From: Acidimicrobiaceae bacterium
GTDB lineage: Bacteria > Actinomycetota > Acidimicrobiia > Acidimicrobiales > RAAP-2
DNA: 62,827 nt
Reading direction: 5' to 3'
Assembly: GCA_003169675.1 (NCBI GenBank)
Contig: PNAT01000133.1
Span: 1-62,827, forward strand
Part shown: positions 48,664 to 60,532 of the stretch, piece after piece
Numbering within the stretch: the stretch's first letter is position 1
How the letters are laid out: each line of letters opens with the position of its first letter
Notes under the pieces: model-generated
Databases searched by the model: none
The model's input: the letters and a program-made list of their open reading frames with translations, nothing else
What the model was told of the DNA's origin: nothing
Position numbers and translations under genes: made by a program

Positions 48664-49293
48664 ATGGCAGCCGCAGTCTCTAGCGTGACGCAAGCCATGC
48701 CAGTGCATGGAGAGGCCGGACTGGGACGTGAGGTGGTACTCGTTCCGGTCAAGGGCTTCCAGCAGGCCAAACGACGGCTGGGGACCATTCTGACCGATGC
48801 CAGGCGAGTAGCGCTGGTTCGGTCAATGGCTGAATGCGTGGTGGCCGCCAGCGCGCCCTTGCCGGTGGCGGTGGTGTGTGACGATGTCGAAGTGGCTGAG
48901 TGGGCCGCCGAGCTGGGCGCCACGGTGATGTGGGAGCCCGGGCAAGGGCTCAACGGAGCTGTGCGGTCCGGAGTCGATCAGCTCGCGGCAGCCGGGGTCG
49001 AGTGGGTGATCGTGGCCCATGGCGATCTTCCGCGCGCGCGCGGGTTGGGCTCGTTGGCTCCTTTCGAAGGGGTCATCTTGGTGCCCGACCGGCGCGACGA
49101 TGGCACCAACGTCCTTCGCATACCGGTGGCCTGCGACTTTCAGTTCGCCTACGGACCGGGGTCATTCCGCGCCCATCGGGCCGAAGCAACGCGCCTCGGC
49201 CTCCCGGTCCGCGTGCAACGGATTCCGGCCTTGGCCTATGACGTGGACTGGCCGGCCGATGTAGCAGAGCTGCACGCCGCACCGCAGAGGTAA
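48664..49293 (+). CDS. cofC: 2-phospho-L-lactate guanylyltransferase (coenzyme F420 biosynthesis)
   Basis: VVLVPVKGFQQAKRRLGTILTDARRVALVRSMAECVV; VIVAHGDLPRARGL; VPDRRDDGTNVLRIP; FAYGPGSFRAHRAEA. Confidence 0.92.
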   Translation: MAAAVSSVTQAMPVHGEAGLGREVVLVPVKGFQQAKRRLGTILTDARRVALVRSMAECVVAASAPLPVAVVCDDVEVAEWAAELGATVMWEPGQGLNGAVRSGVDQLAAAGVEWVIVAHGDLPRARGLGSLAPFEGVILVPDRRDDGTNVLRIPVACDFQFAYGPGSFRAHRAEATRLGLPVRVQRIPALAYDVDWPADVAELHAAPQR

Positions 49294-49310: not shown

Positions 49311-49338
49311 AAGCCGGGGGCCCTCAAGCCCCCGGCTT
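49311..49338. terminator. Bidirectional intrinsic terminator-like hairpin between convergent genes
   Basis: AAGCCGGGGG-ccctcaag-CCCCCGGCTT, perfect 10-bp stem between cofC (+) and the histone-like gene (-). Confidence 0.85.
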
Positions 49339-49364
49339 CACAAGTTCCAGAAGGAACGAACTGC

Positions 49365-49619
49365 TTAGCGCCGACGCGCTGCCTTGCGGGCTGGTGCACG
49401 ACGCACAGCCTTCTTGGCCGGAGCCCGCTTGACCGCCTTCTTGGCTGCCGGGCGCTTCTTGGCCGGAGCCTTCTTGACGGCCTTCTTGGCTGCCGGGCGC
49501 TTCTTCGCCGGAGCCTTCTTGACGGCCTTCTTGGCTGGGGTCCGCTTGACTGCTTTCTTTGCTGGGGCCCGCTTGACGGCCTTTTTGGCCGGAGCCCTTC
49601 TTTTCGCGGCTACTGCCAC
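49365..49619 (-). CDS. Histone H1-like Lys/Ala/Pro-rich repeat protein
   Basis: 84 aa almost wholly AKKAVKRAPAKKAVKRTPAKKAVKKAPAKKRPAAKK repeats; GTG start with AGGGAGG ribosome-binding site. Confidence 0.85.
   Translation of the reverse strand: MAVAAKRRAPAKKAVKRAPAKKAVKRTPAKKAVKKAPAKKRPAAKKAVKKAPAKKRPAAKKAVKRAPAKKAVRRAPARKAARRR
49400..49600. repeat. Degenerate tandem coding repeats (PAKKAVK / RPAAKKAVKKAPAKK units)
   Basis: Recurring ttcttggccggagcc..cttgacggccttcttggc blocks in the sequence. Confidence 0.85.
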
Positions 49620-50073
49620 AGGTGCACCTCCCTAGGAGCATTGTCACTGCATAGAGGTGAAGCCTGCGCCACGCCAATGTTGGACACCCATCGCCGTGCG
49701 CACTGCCGCACCGATTTCATTTGCACTTGCAACGGCTGACGTCCACGCGGTGAGGTCATCGACTTCCCCTCATTGAGCCAACTCGTTGTATTCACCCGAA
49801 TTGCTTCGTTTGATTGATGTGACTGGACGCCTGATGCCGCGCACATTTGACGATCCGACATCTTCGCCGTGCGCGCTGCACATCTTTGTGTCGCAGCACA
49901 TATCAACCCTCCCAAACACTTCAGGTATGCACATTCTTGGTGGTGAACATGCTCAGGTCAAGCATCCTCTTCGAATGCCGCCATTTTCCCCTCAATCGCG
50001 CGCATCAATGCAAGGAGTTCTCAACATGCAATTGATGCTCAAATTGTTCGCCTGCAAGGACAGCTTTGTCTAC

Positions 50074-50137: not shown

Positions 50138-51556
50138 ATGGAAGAAGCTCTTCATTCTGAAGTGACACCTGTTGATGCACGCGTGAGTTCAACCAGTTCT
50201 TTGCGCCGGGTCCATCGATATGCGGCACATAGCATTTACTTGGGAACGGGAGCCCAAGGTTGGGCCTGGGCCGGCGCGCAACGCTCAGCCCTCGTGCTCG
50301 GACCATCACGCTCAGGAAAGACATCGTCCCTGGTCATACCCAATATTTTGCTGTCCGATGGCCCCGTTGTTTCTACGTCAACCAAGCCGGACGTCATGCA
50401 CGCCACCGCATCATCACGCCGTCGAGAAGGTTGGGCCTTTCTCTACGATCCGAGCGGAGAGATCGATTGCCCCCGAGATGTGGAACGGATCGGGTGGTCC
50501 CCCCTGACCACGGCGACTGACTGGGATGCCGCGGTGCAGACAGCTGACGCAATGGTGGGGGCGAGCCGTCTGAGTGGAGGATCGCTCTCCATCTCCGCCG
50601 GAGAACACCACTGGACCGAACGGTCCGCCGCGTTGCTCTCACCCCTCCTCCATGCGGCCGCAATTGAGGGTCTGCCCTTGCGGACCCTTTTGCGGTGGAT
50701 TGATCGCCATAATGGCTCCACTCCGTTGCAGATCCTCAATTCGACGATTGGGGAGGATGCCACGGCAACCGACCTTTTGGCCGGCATCGTGAGCACGGAC
50801 GCCCGGGAACAGTCTGGTATCTGGTCCACCGCATCGGGCGTGATGGCCGCCTATCGATCAGAGGGCGCCATGGCATCGACCGTGGCGCCTCCGCTCAATC
50901 TCAGCGAATTCTGTCGCGGTCCGAATACCATGTACATCTGCTCGCCGGGACGGCGGCAACAGCAATTCGCACCGCTGGTGGTGGCCTCGATCGGCGATGT
51001 GAGAGACGCTACGTATGTGCGTGAGCGCGAAGGCGAGCCAATGGCGCCCACCCTCTTCGCTCTCGACGAGGTCGCCAATATTGCACCCATTCCGGATCTC
51101 CCGGCCATGGTGAGTGAGGGAGCCGGACAGGGGCTGTTGGTGCTGGCGTGCCTCCAGGATCTCTCCCAGGCCCGCGGCCGGTGGGGATCCGCGGCGAACG
51201 GCTTCCTGTCGCTCTTCGGCACCACAGTGGTGCTGCCCGGGATTGCCGACACCGCCACGCTGCGGGACCTCAGCGCGCTGGGAGGCGATCATGAAGTGGC
51301 GACGACGACGGTGGGACGTTCGGTGGGCGAGCGGGGCCGCATCCGCCCCTCAAGTTCGGTCGGCACCGTGCGTCTACCCCGCTTCCCCGTCGAGACAATC
51401 GCCCACGGCGCGCCCGGTCAGGCTCTCGTCCTGGGTCCGGACAAAGCCATGGGATCGGTCACCCTCACCCCATCGTTTTCCCACCGCCCGTGGCGCGACT
51501 TGCTGCCTCCGGCGCGTGCGCTTCCGACACGTGAAACGATGGGGCGCGGGCGATGA
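50138..51556 (+). CDS. VirD4/TraG/TraM-recognition-type coupling ATPase
   Basis: Walker A LVLGPSRSGKTSSLVIPNIL, VVSTSTKPDVMHAT, Walker B APTLFALDEVANIAPIPDLP, DLSQARGRWG; no obvious N-terminal TM. Confidence 0.87.
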   Translation: MEEALHSEVTPVDARVSSTSSLRRVHRYAAHSIYLGTGAQGWAWAGAQRSALVLGPSRSGKTSSLVIPNILLSDGPVVSTSTKPDVMHATASSRRREGWAFLYDPSGEIDCPRDVERIGWSPLTTATDWDAAVQTADAMVGASRLSGGSLSISAGEHHWTERSAALLSPLLHAAAIEGLPLRTLLRWIDRHNGSTPLQILNSTIGEDATATDLLAGIVSTDAREQSGIWSTASGVMAAYRSEGAMASTVAPPLNLSEFCRGPNTMYICSPGRRQQQFAPLVVASIGDVRDATYVREREGEPMAPTLFALDEVANIAPIPDLPAMVSEGAGQGLLVLACLQDLSQARGRWGSAANGFLSLFGTTVVLPGIADTATLRDLSALGGDHEVATTTVGRSVGERGRIRPSSSVGTVRLPRFPVETIAHGAPGQALVLGPDKAMGSVTLTPSFSHRPWRDLLPPARALPTRETMGRGR

Positions 51557-51557
51557 G

Positions 51558-52961
51558 TCAACGACCGCGGTCGAGTTCCATGGTCTGTGGTCCCCCTCGA
51601 CCCAACAGCGCACGCGCGGCTTCCACCTGGTGGGCCGTGCGCACGTGGTCGACCAAACGACTGGTAGGGAGTGCGGCAAGACCGCTCGGCCCGTTCCCCA
51701 CGCCGAGTGTGTCCGGTGCCCTCGTGACACCCCATCGTTGTCGGTAGTCATCGATCTCCCGGGCGGCGGCACGCCAGACCGCGTGAGCTCGGGGGTCCAC
51801 CGGCCGCGGTCCGAGTGCGCGCAAGAGGTAACTTCCAGGCACGATAAGACGCCGTTGGAGGACATCTTCGGACACGCCAACCTGAATGGCGTTGGTCGGC
51901 GGCACCCACATATCGGACAATTTCTCCAGGTCATCAGCCGACACGCCATCGCGCGCCGCGGTACCGAAGGCGGTGATCACGTCTCGCCGCCGCGCCCCTC
52001 CGTCCGGCGCCACCGAGAGCGCTGCCGCGAAGTGATGTTCGTTGAAGGACTGCGCTTCCACCTTCCGGCCGAGCACTTCTGTCAGTTCGGACCGCTCCAC
52101 CCCGATGGCGCGGGCACGGTACTCCCACCGCGCGGTGAGGTCCTCGTAGCGGGCGCCAACCTCTTTCGGGGTCCGGGTCACGGCCCAGGCAATGTGGTTG
52201 CCCCGGGCCGAATGCGCCCCCATTTCGGCCATGTGCCGGCGGATATCAGCCGAGCGGGAGGAGAATTCGCCCCGCAGGAGGGGGGACACACCACAGACTT
52301 CGGCGCGTTCTTGGGGGGCCTGGGTCCAGTGGACCCCCAGGCGCGCCGTCATGCCCACACGCAAGTGCGCGTCGTACACCGCCGACGCCGCTTCCCGATG
52401 GGCCGAGATCCCTCGTTGATCACAGGCGCTCCAGCGGCCATCGCCACCGTGCACCAAGCTCGCCATCACGACGTGGCTGTGCAGGTGGGGATCAAGGTTG
52501 CGACTCACTCCATGGGTGAACCAACCTGCCACCGCACCACTCGTCGGCACCACCTCGCGCTGGCCCCCCGCACGCCGGGCCGCCGAGATCCCATGGGCCT
52601 CCATGTACGCCACCGCGCCCCTGACAGCATCAGCGTGCGCCGCCATGATGTGGTGCGCCACGTCCTCACCGCCCAGGGCGAACAGCACGCTGGCCGACTT
52701 CGGCGCGCTGAAGGTCAGGTCGTAGCCGAGCACCGTGGCCCGGTTCGATCGCATCTGCCGCCCGGAGTCCGGGTGGCACCCCTCGAGCACGTTGCGGAAC
52801 TGCAGTGGATCCACCGTGCCACCAAGGCCGAGGCCTTGGGCCGCCTGGCCGATCCACACGCCTTGGCCCGGGAGGGGCGCGAGGGGCACCGGAAGCTCCT
52901 GGGCCAGATCGGTGAGGTAATAGTCCGCCCGGTTCGAGGTGAGGCGGTGGATCCCCAGCAT
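51558..52961 (-). CDS. TrwC/MobF-type conjugative relaxase, relaxase domain only
   Basis: Tyr pair (LTSNRADYYLTDLA), YDLTFSAPKSASVLFALG, His triad NLDPHLHSHVVMASL; no helicase Walker A found in the 467 aa. Confidence 0.9.
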   Translation of the reverse strand: MLGIHRLTSNRADYYLTDLAQELPVPLAPLPGQGVWIGQAAQGLGLGGTVDPLQFRNVLEGCHPDSGRQMRSNRATVLGYDLTFSAPKSASVLFALGGEDVAHHIMAAHADAVRGAVAYMEAHGISAARRAGGQREVVPTSGAVAGWFTHGVSRNLDPHLHSHVVMASLVHGGDGRWSACDQRGISAHREAASAVYDAHLRVGMTARLGVHWTQAPQERAEVCGVSPLLRGEFSSRSADIRRHMAEMGAHSARGNHIAWAVTRTPKEVGARYEDLTARWEYRARAIGVERSELTEVLGRKVEAQSFNEHHFAAALSVAPDGGARRRDVITAFGTAARDGVSADDLEKLSDMWVPPTNAIQVGVSEDVLQRRLIVPGSYLLRALGPRPVDPRAHAVWRAAAREIDDYRQRWGVTRAPDTLGVGNGPSGLAALPTSRLVDHVRTAHQVEAARALLGRGGPQTMELDRGR

Positions 52962-52991
52962 CGAACTCCTCGCTCTAAACTGACTTTTATA

Positions 52992-54941
52992 TCATTCTAT
53001 GTCTTTCTGATAAATCTTCAATACCCTTGAGGCGGCCTGCCCAGCCAGGGCGATCAGTTCGAGCGGGCTCACCACATAGGCCTCTGTCCCCAATTGGAGG
53101 AGCAGGCGCTCGAACCACGCCATGCCGGCCACGTCCAGGACCACGTCGGTGACCATGCCATCGGAGGACCGGCGCACGGCACGCACCGGGACCGATTCGG
53201 CCACCCACTGGGCCCCTAGGCCCGCGTGGAGATGGACTTCTTGGGCACCTGGTCCCGGGATGAAGGCGCCCGCGGCGGGGCGGGTCGTCCGGGGAGCGCC
53301 GGCGCTCGGTCCGTCGTGGGGGCGTACCTCATTGATCCGGTCCACCCGGAAACGCCGCATGTCTCCCGCCCGGTGGCAGTAGGCGTCGAGATACCAGTGC
53401 CCATCCATGGTGATGACCTGGGCCGGCTCGACGACCCGGCTGGTCAACTCGTCCCGCGAGGCGGAGAGGTAGGCGATCTCCAGAAGCCGCCCGGCGTCGG
53501 TGGCCTGGCGGACGGCGGCGAGGTGCTGTGGCGTGTCGACATCGACCCCGACCGCCTCGCGGGAGCCCAGGGCGGCGTCGAGCTTGGCCAGGGCACGGCG
53601 CAGGGAATCATCGTCCGAGCCCGGCACGGCCAGGATGAGACGAGCCGATGCGGCAACGGCAAAACCCTCGGCCGCAGTGAGGCGACGAGGGCGGGCGTAG
53701 TCGGCCGGGAGGAAGGCCCGCACCGAAGTTTCAGACACCTCAATCTCCATCAACGTGTCCGGGGTGTAGGGAGGGACGCCGCAGCACGCCGCCAACTCGA
53801 GCTCCGCCACCAGCTCCTGATCACTCATGCCGAATCGCTGCGCCACCTCGGCAATCGGTGCCTCACCGACCTGAGCCAACCAGCCGACCACCGCCAGCAG
53901 TCGACGCAGGCGGTTGCTCGTGGCGCGGCCGGGAACCGCCCTGACGTCCCCGCCGGGCGATTCAGCATCCAGGGGTGAGGGGAAGGGGGTGGCCTCGTGG
54001 CGCGGCACCGTCATGGTGGCCAGCGCCGTGAGCCACGCCTCCAGGTCGGCCCGGAAATCAGGGGGGGCGAGGATCTCGGCGTGATCGAGCAGCCCGAGGA
54101 CCCATGACCGGATGGCCGGGAACGAGGCCACGGCGAGGGTGAGGTCGACGGATCCGTCGTCGTAGCGGCGATCGACCTTGTCGTGGCCCACCTCTTCGGC
54201 CACGCGAGGACCTTCGAGGGCGTCGACGTGGATCCGCATGACGATGTAGTCCTCACCCCCTGGGCGCCATGGTTCGTCGGGCAACGCCGCGCGCACGTCA
54301 ATCCCCTCCGGGACCGCCGCGCGCCCAGTGGCACCCAGCGTCACGTCACCATCGATGCGGTCGACCCGGAACGTGCGTACGGCGGCGCGGTCCAGATCCC
54401 ACGCCACCAGGTACCAGTGGCCGAAACGGAACCAAAGTCCGACGGGCACCACCCGGCGATCGTCGCCCCGGTAGGCAAAGGTGGCCTCGGTGCGCGTGCG
54501 GACCGCCTCGAAGAGGTCGATGAGAGCGCGTGGCGGTACCAGCGTGGCAATCGGTCGCACGTCGTGCAGGCCGGTGGCGCCCAACTTCAGAAGTGCATCG
54601 CGGCCACTAGGATCGCCCAGGTGAACCCCGGCCACGGCCAGGTGAAGCGCAACCTGCTCATCGGATTCGAGGGCCAGATCCGGCAGGTAAAACGCCTCGC
54701 GATCGATCAAGTACCCGTACTGCTCACGCCCGCTCAGCCTCTGCGTCGTGACGGGGATGCCCTCGTCGCGCAGGAGGCGCTTGTCCCGCTCGAAGGCTTG
54801 GCGCCTCGCTCCAAGGTCGACTGGATAGCCCGGCACCTGAAGGGCGATCGCATCGAGGGTCATGGGAACTGTGGTGTCCAGCAGAACCAAGACGAGGTCC
54901 GTCACCCGCTCGAGCCGGTCAAGTCTGGAGGGTCCGATCAT
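52992..54941 (-). CDS. Fused PafB-PafC-like WYL-domain transcriptional regulator
   Basis: Two successive HTH + WYL-like halves: RLDRLERVTDLVLVLLDT..FRFGHWYLVAWDLDRAAVRTFRVDRI and NRLRRLLAVVGWLAQVGEAPIAEVAQRFGMSDQELVAELELAACCGVPPYTPDTLMEIEV..MDGHWYLDAYCHRAGDMRRFRVDRI. Confidence 0.85.
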   Translation of the reverse strand: MIGPSRLDRLERVTDLVLVLLDTTVPMTLDAIALQVPGYPVDLGARRQAFERDKRLLRDEGIPVTTQRLSGREQYGYLIDREAFYLPDLALESDEQVALHLAVAGVHLGDPSGRDALLKLGATGLHDVRPIATLVPPRALIDLFEAVRTRTEATFAYRGDDRRVVPVGLWFRFGHWYLVAWDLDRAAVRTFRVDRIDGDVTLGATGRAAVPEGIDVRAALPDEPWRPGGEDYIVMRIHVDALEGPRVAEEVGHDKVDRRYDDGSVDLTLAVASFPAIRSWVLGLLDHAEILAPPDFRADLEAWLTALATMTVPRHEATPFPSPLDAESPGGDVRAVPGRATSNRLRRLLAVVGWLAQVGEAPIAEVAQRFGMSDQELVAELELAACCGVPPYTPDTLMEIEVSETSVRAFLPADYARPRRLTAAEGFAVAASARLILAVPGSDDDSLRRALAKLDAALGSREAVGVDVDTPQHLAAVRQATDAGRLLEIAYLSASRDELTSRVVEPAQVITMDGHWYLDAYCHRAGDMRRFRVDRINEVRPHDGPSAGAPRTTRPAAGAFIPGPGAQEVHLHAGLGAQWVAESVPVRAVRRSSDGMVTDVVLDVAGMAWFERLLLQLGTEAYVVSPLELIALAGQAASRVLKIYQKDIE

Positions 54942-54970: not shown

Positions 54971-55843
54971 GTGACCGCACTGGCTCTCGCCTTCGGCTGG
55001 CATCTCCACCTGGCGTGGCTTCTGGTCGTGATCGCCGTCGGTACCGCATACATCCGGGCGACGCAGCGCGTGGGGTGGGAGGCCACCCCACGCCAACGCG
55101 TCCTCTTCCTCGTCGCCGTGGCGCTCCTGTGCATTGCCGTCACGTGGCCATTGGGCGATCTGGCGGCCCACTGGTCGCTCGTGGCCCTGGTGCTCCAGCG
55201 TCTGCTGTTACTCCTGGCCGTGCCTCCGCTGGTCGTGGCCGGGACGCCTCGCCCCATCCTTGCCCGGCTCACCCGCCCGGCCGCGGTCGACGTCTTCCTG
55301 CGCATTGCCGTCAAACCGATACCGGCGATCGCTGTGGTCACCGTGGTGGCGGTTGGCACGTTGACGACCGGGGCCGTCAATCTGGCCTCTCATTCCGACC
55401 TGGCCCGGGTGATCTTTCAGCTTCTCGTCCTGGCCTCGGGTGTGGTCCTCTGGGCCCCCGTCCTCACCGAATTGCCGGGTGTCCGAAGGTTGTCCTCCTT
55501 GGGGCGCGGTGGTTACTTGATCGTCCAGTCGATCGTCCCGAGCTTCCTCTCGGTGGTCTGGATCTTCGCCCGGCGATCGCTCTATCCGTCGTACAGCAAG
55601 GCGGGAACCGTGGCCGGGATGTCGCCCGTGCTCGACCAACAGCTGGCCGGATTCCTGGCCAAGTTCAGCACCATTGCCGTGTTGTGGACCGTGGCCTTCA
55701 TCATCATCCGCCGGTCCCCGGAATTTTCCGGCGGCGAGGACGAGGCCGGGCCGCTCCTGTGGTCCGATGTCGAGCGCGAAATCGAGCGCGCTGATCGCCG
55801 CGAGCGCCGCGGTGGGTCGCCCGGACCTCCCAGCGCAGCATGA
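54971..55843 (+). CDS. Cytochrome c oxidase assembly factor, CtaG/caa3 family
   Basis: Multi-TM; FGWHLHLAWLLVVIAVGTAYIRATQRVGW, AHWSLVALVLQRLLLLLAVPPLVVAGTP. Confidence 0.8.
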   Translation: MTALALAFGWHLHLAWLLVVIAVGTAYIRATQRVGWEATPRQRVLFLVAVALLCIAVTWPLGDLAAHWSLVALVLQRLLLLLAVPPLVVAGTPRPILARLTRPAAVDVFLRIAVKPIPAIAVVTVVAVGTLTTGAVNLASHSDLARVIFQLLVLASGVVLWAPVLTELPGVRRLSSLGRGGYLIVQSIVPSFLSVVWIFARRSLYPSYSKAGTVAGMSPVLDQQLAGFLAKFSTIAVLWTVAFIIIRRSPEFSGGEDEAGPLLWSDVEREIERADRRERRGGSPGPPSAA

Positions 55844-59188: not shown

Positions 59189-60532
59189 TCAGTCCCCGCT
59201 GAGTTGCATGTCGGCGATGGCCAGGGTCTGCCCGGCGGCCAGCCCGGGGAGCCATTGCAGGTCGCTGCCGATTTCCACCACAGCCTGGAGCATCCGCTGC
59301 AGGGTGGAGGCCACCGTGACCTCGCGCACCGGTTCGGCCAGGTGTCCCCCCCGGATCATGAGTCCTTCGGCCCCGACCGAGAAGTCCCCACTCACCGGGT
59401 TCACGCCGGAATGGATACCCGTCACCGATTGCACGTAAAGCCCATCGCCGACCGTGGCCAGGATCTCCTCTGGACCTTTTGACCCTGGGGCGAGGACGAT
59501 CGCCCGGCATCCCGCCGTTGGTGTCCCGGCGTAACCGCCCCGCACCGCTGAGCCGGTTGACGTCGTCTTGGCCCTCCGGGCCGAGACCGTGTCGAAGACG
59601 AACATGCGGAGCATGCCGTCGGAAATGAGCACGTTGCGCCGGCAGGCCAGGCCCTCGCCATCGTGCGACGACGCGCTGTAGGCCCGGACGTCGGTGGGGT
59701 CGTCCACCAGAGTGACGGCGCCGTGGGCCACCGACTCACCGATCCGTCCGGCGAAGAACGAGCGCCCCTTGACCACGGCCTCACCCGAGAGGGCCGCCGC
59801 CACGACCGAGAGCACGGTGGAGACGACGCGAGGGTCGAAGACCACGGTGCAGCGCCCCGATCGTGCCTTCTGGGCTCCCAGGAGGCGGGTGGACCGCAGC
59901 ACGGCATCGACCATCGCCTCCTCGGGGTTGAGGTCGCCCGGTGCCCGGCCCACACTGAAACCGGTGCCGGTCTGCGTGTCCGCTCCCTCCCCGGCGATGG
60001 CGTCGACCGACACAAAGGCACTGGTGCGGCGCGCCGTTGACCTGATGCCGGCCGTTGAGGCCAACGCCACTTCCACCCTCCCGTCGGAGTAGTCCGCCGA
60101 GGAAACCTGGCGTACCCGGGGGTCGGCGGCGCGGGTGGCCCGTTCGAGGTCGATGGCGAGTGCGATCTTTTCGTCCATGGGCGTCGACGCCACCCGCTCG
60201 TCCCACAGGTCAAGGTCGACACCGGCGATCCCGTCTGGTGCGGCCAGGACGACATCGGCGTCAGGGGTGGCGTAGCGCGCGTTGTCCCGGGCGTCCGCCA
60301 GGGTGGCATCGATCACCGCGGGGTCGAGCGACCCGGCGTATGCGAAGCCCACCTGGTTGCCCAGCACTACGCGGATCCCGACACCCGATGAGTCGGCTGA
60401 GGTCAGCGACTCGATCGCCCCCTCGTAGGCGCGCACCTCGGTTTCGGTACCCCTGGTGACGTAGACCTCCATCCCCTCGCCCTCCCGGGCCCGGTCGACC
60501 ACCGACGTGGCCAGTTCCATGAGATCAGGCAC
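59189..60532 (-). CDS. tldE: Metallopeptidase-associated protein TldE/PmbA family
   Basis: EGMEVYVTRGTETEVRAYEGAIESLTSADSSGVGIRVV; ICSGVNPVSGDFSVGAEGLMIRGG-type C-terminus. Confidence 0.92.
   Translation of the reverse strand: MPDLMELATSVVDRAREGEGMEVYVTRGTETEVRAYEGAIESLTSADSSGVGIRVVLGNQVGFAYAGSLDPAVIDATLADARDNARYATPDADVVLAAPDGIAGVDLDLWDERVASTPMDEKIALAIDLERATRAADPRVRQVSSADYSDGRVEVALASTAGIRSTARRTSAFVSVDAIAGEGADTQTGTGFSVGRAPGDLNPEEAMVDAVLRSTRLLGAQKARSGRCTVVFDPRVVSTVLSVVAAALSGEAVVKGRSFFAGRIGESVAHGAVTLVDDPTDVRAYSASSHDGEGLACRRNVLISDGMLRMFVFDTVSARRAKTTSTGSAVRGGYAGTPTAGCRAIVLAPGSKGPEEILATVGDGLYVQSVTGIHSGVNPVSGDFSVGAEGLMIRGGHLAEPVREVTVASTLQRMLQAVVEIGSDLQWLPGLAAGQTLAIADMQLSGD

Follow-up and report, generated by a model that had tools for sequence, protein, structure and literature searches.

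Inherited conjugation genes and a chromosomal relaxase behind pafBC suggest a housekeeping DNA-exchange machine linked to repair in Acidimicrobiales

DNA-nicking relaxases are normally enzymes of mobile plasmids. Bacterial conjugation systems are likewise regarded as a property of mobile elements (PMC9905601). The nearest published idea to the system described here is that of the archaeal Ced and Ted systems, domesticated conjugation machinery that serves the exchange and repair of DNA and includes pilins but no relaxase; for Ced, both UV induction and a role in repair have been shown experimentally (PMC9905601). The nearest bacterial relative of its channel genes is the cmd cluster of Streptomyces (cmdABCDEF, SCO6871-6884), in which chromosomal relatives of VirB4, SCO6880 and the VirB6-like SCO6881 are encoded in one operon, with five membrane proteins and one ATPase in all (PMC2782261). 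VirD4, VirB4 and TrwC components also occur in actinobacterial integrative and conjugative elements (ICEs) of the type IV secretion system (T4SS) type (PMC3218068). The subject of this work is a stretch of 62,827 nucleotides from an Acidimicrobiaceae bacterium (contig PNAT01000133.1, assembly GCA_003169675.1; hereafter the window), in which a relaxase gene lies directly behind pafBC, the gene for a fused DNA-damage regulator of the WYL-domain type, and beside a gene for a soluble VirD4-type coupling ATPase (T4CP).

Like Ced and Ted, the Acidimicrobiales set comprises chromosomal, domesticated VirB4 and VirB6 machinery tied to DNA damage; unlike them, it includes a relaxase, and its damage induction and role in repair are presumed. 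It differs from cmd in the addition of VirD4 proteins and an intact relaxase, and from the ICEs in being non-mobile and spread over two fixed chromosomal loci. We put at about even the chance that these genes encode a domesticated, vertically inherited conjugation-type DNA-transfer machine, associated with the damage response and fixed as a chromosomal trait in a set of Acidimicrobiales families. In the sequences this rests on chromosomal positions that are fixed, active sites that are intact and genes that are under purifying selection; the two loci also co-occur and diverge in a correlated way, and both are linked to DNA-damage genes.

The pafBC-relaxase-T4CP module

The features of the module are as follows.

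52992-54941, minus strand: pafBC, fused PafB-PafC WYL regulator, 649 aa (Pfam and solved-structure match)
52962-52991, minus strand: pafBC-relaxase spacer, 30 bp, with ribosome-binding site GCGAGGAG; folding unremarkable
52994-53021, minus strand: promoter-like TTGAAG-16-TAGAAT in the pafBC 3' end, ahead of the relaxase
51558-52961, minus strand: stand-alone MobF (TrwC/TraI-type) relaxase without helicase domain, 467 aa (Pfam, NCBIfam and fold)
52917-52922, minus strand: catalytic tyrosine pair Y14-Y15 of the relaxase, invariant in 20 relatives
52473-52487, minus strand: metal-binding histidine motif HLHSH of the relaxase, residues 159-163, aligned with LHTH of TrwC
50138-51556, plus strand: soluble VirD4/TrwB-type coupling ATPase (T4CP), 472 aa (PF02534, 8.1e-22; PF12696, 6.4e-19)
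50300-50323, plus strand: T4CP Walker A, GPSRSGKT, nearly all positions invariant in the family alignment
51059-51070, plus strand: T4CP Walker B, ALDE, invariant in the family alignment

On the minus strand, pafBC extends from an ATG at 54941 to a TGA stop at 52994-52992, and the relaxase gene from an ATG at 52961 to a stop that ends at 51558. A prior sequence-only reading had described the relaxase gene as following pafBC on the same strand, after a 30-bp gap with a ribosome-binding site and no hairpin, and every element of that description was confirmed: GCGAGGAG is located at 52973-52966, and the spacer has no notable hairpin (folding z 0.16). Missed at that stage were the T4CP gene, which is convergent with the relaxase gene such that the two stop codons abut, and the promoter-like sequence on the relaxase strand at 53021-52994.

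The relaxase is matched by the Pfam TrwC profile (PF08751, 8.7e-68), NCBIfam MobF (9.2e-58) and TrwC 1omh (1.9e-49), and its AlphaFold model (pLDDT 85.6) aligns with TrwC (1zm5) at a Foldseek TM of 0.87 (E 7e-18). It shares with TrwC of R388 and TraI of F the relaxase fold, tandem tyrosines, the histidine triad and about 29% identity over 300 aa. Residues H150, H159, H161 and H163 are invariant in an alignment of 20 relaxases, and the active site, as modelled, is of the conjugative type. In contrast to TrwC and TraI, the family protein has no helicase part, is chromosomal and vertically inherited, and is linked to pafBC. Some pafBC-linked relaxases outside the family are longer, at 650-1050 aa, and a partial TraA-type match is present C-terminal to the relaxase domain in one pafBC-linked locus (L026) and in L030, which suggests that the short form has lost its helicase part.

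The T4CP has a RecA-like ATPase core with Walker A and B motifs, as indicated by Pfam, alignment and fold. Its AlphaFold model (pLDDT 76.6) is closest by Foldseek to Cag-beta and TrwB-deltaN70, consistent with the hexameric-ATPase fold of the VirD4/TrwB coupling proteins. Unlike those proteins, it is without an N-terminal transmembrane domain: no such anchor was found in the T4CP sequence, which begins with a short N-terminus of low confidence and continues as a soluble core matching TrwB minus its anchor. Another VirD4, which does have a membrane anchor, is encoded at a different place in the genome. In a phylum-wide sample, only Acidimicrobiales yielded high-scoring relatives of the soluble T4CP. 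The C-termini of the relaxase and the T4CP are short arginine/glycine tails (DRGR and MGRGR), as they are in many relatives, and bring to mind the basic C-terminal signals of type IV secretion.

The regulator comprises two WYL, two WCX and an HTH_PafC domain by Pfam, a duplicated PafB-PafC architecture, and is encoded by the sole HTH_PafC gene found in the 3.56-Mb draft genome. Its closest solved relative is the fused PafBC of Arthrobacter (6sj9), with which, as with mycobacterial PafBC, it shares FRVDR-type arginines in both WYL domains (FRVDR is present in each half). In other actinobacteria pafBC is linked to proteasome genes; its neighbour here is a relaxase gene. Within the literature library searched, no paper joins PafBC with a relaxase, and the few that combine Acidimicrobia with either relaxases or type IV secretion were surveys on other matters whose titles and abstracts contain no such system.

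Conservation was examined in 100 related genomes, mostly drafts, with 61 in the source family and 39 of the order outside it; start codons were placed by rule, and adjacency was counted from coordinate tables. The relaxase was found in 83 of the 100, and about 50 of the 61 family genomes have relaxase, T4CP and pafBC together on a single contig. Most exceptions are associated with contig ends or strongly diverged pafBC; the module is missing from two incomplete family genomes, and one further genome (G058) shows a mobile-type set only. Among 80 named loci fetched with the T4CP, mostly from metagenome-assembled genomes of Acidimicrobiaceae or Acidimicrobiales, the genes usually stand in the order cofC, T4CP, relaxase, pafBC and then ctaG and/or tldD-tldE, despite large divergence. 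Many of these records bear the label palsa, bog or fen. The order consists of soil bacteria that favour acid, and lineages carrying the module are often from acidic habitats. The sequence-only reading had left open whether the adjacency of pafBC and relaxase is unique to this genome; it is kept across the family and in at least eight others (f9, f21, f28, f32, f33, f38, f39 and f45), as well as in cultured Aciditerrimonas ferrireducens MV1. The two genes are on the same strand in all 41 relatives from which they were extracted, with a median gap of about 50 bp where a start could be placed. One genome (G091) departs from this pattern, with relaxase and pafBC some 8 kb apart and the T4CP about 20 kb further. 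The flanking genes that fix the position are:

48664-49293, plus strand: cofC, fixed chromosomal flank (PF01983), syntenic in relatives
54971-55843, plus strand: ctaG-like gene, divergent flank on the pafBC side (PF09678), syntenic in near relatives
59189-60532, minus strand: tldD/pmbA-type protease gene, further fixed flank (PF19289/PF01523), syntenic in distant relatives

Fixed synteny and near-universal presence in the family are not the traits of a mobile ICE or plasmid, and the sequence comparisons indicate that the relaxase gene is a fixed, vertically inherited chromosomal gene directly behind pafBC. The module has the GC content of its flanks. Between close pairs, dN/dS is 0.11-0.36 in the relaxase gene, and the T4CP gene gives 0.11-0.19. 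When 52 relaxase domains were placed in a tree, a single branch parted the pafBC-linked proteins from mobile-element types (support 91/65, present in 91% of bootstraps), a separation not reached in any of 500 label shuffles; deeper forks are weak. These data bear on the possibility that the module is what is left of a conjugative element or plasmid that once integrated here and is now decaying. TrwC relaxases and VirD4 proteins are typical of mobile elements, and a true mobile set is present in the same genome, on contig C164. However, the position is fixed across genera and families, no integrase family was found among the flanking window proteins tested, and the genes are under purifying selection with invariant active sites, the relaxases being set apart from mobile ones by one branch of the tree. 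This explanation was rejected on synteny, selection and the relaxase tree, and is considered highly improbable.

Between cofC and the T4CP gene lies a small lysine/alanine-rich, histone-H1-like open reading frame (49324-49677, minus strand), which has no Pfam or NCBIfam match and occupies the same place in near relatives; an HU-like gene stands in its place in related loci. Two conserved noncoding blocks occur in 49870-49965, where the minus strand resembles a TTGACC promoter followed by a short leader reading frame (ATG TGC TGC GAC). The blocks at 49891-49965, upstream of the T4CP, were considered as an origin of transfer (oriT) and rejected, since they read as a promoter with a leader belonging to the histone-like/HU gene, which is divergent. 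An Rfam scan of the relaxase, T4CP and pafBC module returned nothing.

A second locus with channel genes

A further VirD4-like gene is present in most genomes of the family and is located beside serS in a fixed order: serS, a two-component system (RR-HK), VirB6, SCO6880, VirB4 and VirD4, followed by P450 and ROK genes. The VirD4 of this locus is membrane-anchored, and the VirB6-like protein belongs to the SCO6881 family, with about seven membrane helices. NCBIfam matches range from 1e-42 to 3e-74 for SCO6880, with 3e-17 for SCO6881. The order is kept, with small losses, in families f28, f33, f38 and f39, and dN/dS for VirB4 is 0.08-0.13.

The two loci are associated in both occurrence and divergence. 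Among the 39 genomes of the order outside the family, the soluble T4CP and VirB4 are found together in nine, singly in two, and are both absent from 28; VirB4 is present in nine of the ten non-family carriers of the soluble T4CP, and sister lineages in which the T4CP is linked to imuABC also carry it. Protein distances are correlated between VirB4 and pafBC (r = 0.86, 25 genomes, p 0.001), VirD4 and T4CP (r = 0.78) and relaxase and T4CP (r = 0.79; p 0.001 each), and overall the pairs tested among the two loci besides VirB4-pafBC gave r of 0.36 to 0.79, with p at most 0.018. Together, these findings describe a conjugation-type gene set that is inherited vertically and divided between two places on the chromosome. 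Chromosomal, vertically inherited homologues of VirB4 and VirB6, as in Ced, are accordingly found at the second locus.

The chromosomal virB4-like gene is cut at the same place, at residue ~291-302 just past Walker B, in at least four genomes (G000, the window genome, and G002, G008 and G045), with the parts on different contigs: C41 and C196 in G000 (L139, ~6480, and L131, ~3955), and the pairs L142/L143, L140/L144 and L141/L134. In G002 a reading frame resembling a large serine recombinase adjoins the junction, and the pattern suggests that an element integrates into the virB4-like gene. Rfam gave no match at the break; thus no known group I or group II intron model explains it.

The window genome also carries a separate mobile-type set on contig C164 (L132), with VirB6, SCO6880-like, VirB4 and VirD4 genes and a relaxase reading frame of 1162 aa. 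Since true mobile conjugation sets are present in the same genomes, the chromosomal relaxase might be kept to mobilise resident plasmids and integrative elements in trans, or to interfere with them. We regard this as improbable: the module also occurs in small genomes in which the search found just one relaxase gene, and its linkage is to damage genes as opposed to defence genes.

Links to the DNA-damage response

In sister lineages, at seven loci (L058, 9533-14710; L060, L061, L062, L107, L108 and L116), Aciditerrimonas included, the soluble T4CP gene lies directly before imuA'-imuB-dnaE2, and in six of the seven a perfect LexA box stands between them. ImuA' and DnaE2 are clear by NCBIfam, whereas the assignment of ImuB relies on its position together with a weak match to polymerase IV. 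At two further loci (L100 and L104) dnaE2 is 4-7 kb from the T4CP. The relaxase stays with pafBC in the imuA'BC-linked lineages where this was checked (G317, G320 and G322). Judged from gene order, then, two different members of the set, the relaxase and the T4CP, are situated beside two different damage-response units.

The promoters of recA provide a reference for damage control in the lineage. In 25 family genomes (L179-L203), 24 recA promoters have a perfect LexA box, and nearly all have a PafBC-type element, TTGTCACAC-N8-TAGGGT, laid out like the mycobacterial PafBC promoter. This suggests that TTGTCACAC-N8-TAGGGT is the lineage-specific PafBC motif, and that a PafBC regulon exists. The mycobacterial motif TTGTCRGTG-N8-TANNNT, with up to two mismatches, has six matches in the window against 2.2 expected, none of them at the module. 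With a matrix built from the 25 recA promoters, nothing in the window scored above 15, and 2 Mb of relatives' loci contained one match, with none near the relaxase or T4SS genes. LexA boxes at the module in the source family are represented by scattered single-mismatch matches only, mostly intragenic. Sigma70-like sequences such as TTGAAG-16-TAGAAT at the pafBC 3' end number two in the region against 0.2 expected, and promoter-like matches ahead of the relaxase occur in 12 of 41 relatives versus 6 of 287 control windows. The predicted promoter at 53021-52994 would allow the relaxase to be transcribed independently.

The sequence-only reading had suggested that the relaxase may be linked to the damage response through a transcript probably shared with pafBC. 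An association of the wider module with DNA damage gains support, because the T4CP precedes LexA-boxed imuA'-imuB-dnaE2 in sister lineages; the proposed regulatory route fared less well, given the lack of PafBC and LexA sites at the module and the relaxase's own putative promoter. Furthermore, mycobacterial PafBC is switched on by binding single-stranded DNA (ssDNA; PMC11804915), so co-transcription with pafBC alone would not make the relaxase damage-inducible. The functional link preferred here is that the relaxase and coupling ATPases would make or handle ssDNA, the ligand of PafBC.

It is also conceivable that gene order alone is conserved, i.e. that the machine is real and the relaxase is driven by a separate promoter within the 3' end of pafBC, with no regulatory tie to damage. 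The sequence at 53021-52994, the enrichment of such sites in relatives and a module devoid of the PafBC and LexA sites that recA possesses are all compatible with this, whereas the short spacing and common strand kept over at least nine families, and the separate linkage of the T4CP to damage genes, count against it. This account is credible, if somewhat less than an even prospect.

A DNA-transfer machine or an intracellular role

Several observations weigh against a damage-associated transfer machine. The co-occurrence of T4CP and VirB4 has a Fisher probability of 5e-7 that is not corrected for kinship. The window genome's own chromosomal virB4 is split near the Walker B region, hence this organism may have a broken channel or use the one encoded by the mobile element on C164 instead. 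No PafBC-type or LexA site was found at the promoters of the relaxase, pafBC, T4CP or T4SS genes; no oriT was identified in a search upstream of the T4CP; and Pfam and NCBIfam scans of the 467-aa window relaxase gave no helicase match. Lastly, the related Streptomyces clusters of VirB4, SCO6880 and SCO6881 have their role in sporulation and the segregation of chromosomes instead of conjugation (PMC2782261).

The precedent of cmd is the reason for keeping an intracellular role as a serious rival. The relaxase could make or resolve nicks in intermediates of replication or repair, while the soluble ATPase could pump DNA inside the cell like HerA or FtsK, with no DNA leaving the cell and the serS-linked cluster serving segregation or the envelope. 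A T4CP without a membrane anchor, a relaxase without a helicase, the damage neighbours pafBC and imuA'BC-dnaE2, and the demonstration in Streptomyces that such relatives can work in segregation (PMC2782261) all fit this explanation. Against it, membrane VirD4, VirB4 and a VirB6 with multiple transmembrane helices co-occur with the relaxase and soluble ATPase, which together amount to a transfer-channel set, and the relaxase has an active site of conjugative type. An intracellular role is accordingly judged rather unlikely.

Under the preferred explanation, that of an inherited DNA-transfer machine, the relaxase would nick a chromosomal site and the two coupling ATPases would deliver the strand bound by it to the VirB4/VirB6 channel. 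Single-stranded chromosomal DNA would then pass between kin cells, serving repair and recombination, with PafBC placed to sense ssDNA whether produced by the cell or taken up. Relaxase transcripts probably arise in part through read-through of pafBC and in part at a promoter belonging to the relaxase gene itself. The fullest version of this scheme, in which a housekeeping machine with its own relaxase exchanges chromosomal ssDNA between kin after damage while PafBC senses the transferred or displaced strand, would make it a bacterial counterpart of Ced; in this complete form it is speculative, and doubtful on present evidence.

Nevertheless, a chromosomal relaxase behind pafBC, together with inherited conjugation genes, suggests a housekeeping DNA-exchange machine linked to repair. 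If this is correct, some bacteria would exchange chromosomal DNA as a cellular trait, the ssDNA sensor PafBC would acquire a new context, and the Acidimicrobiales would offer a bacterial example, open to direct testing, of DNA exchange that resembles sex and is coupled to repair.

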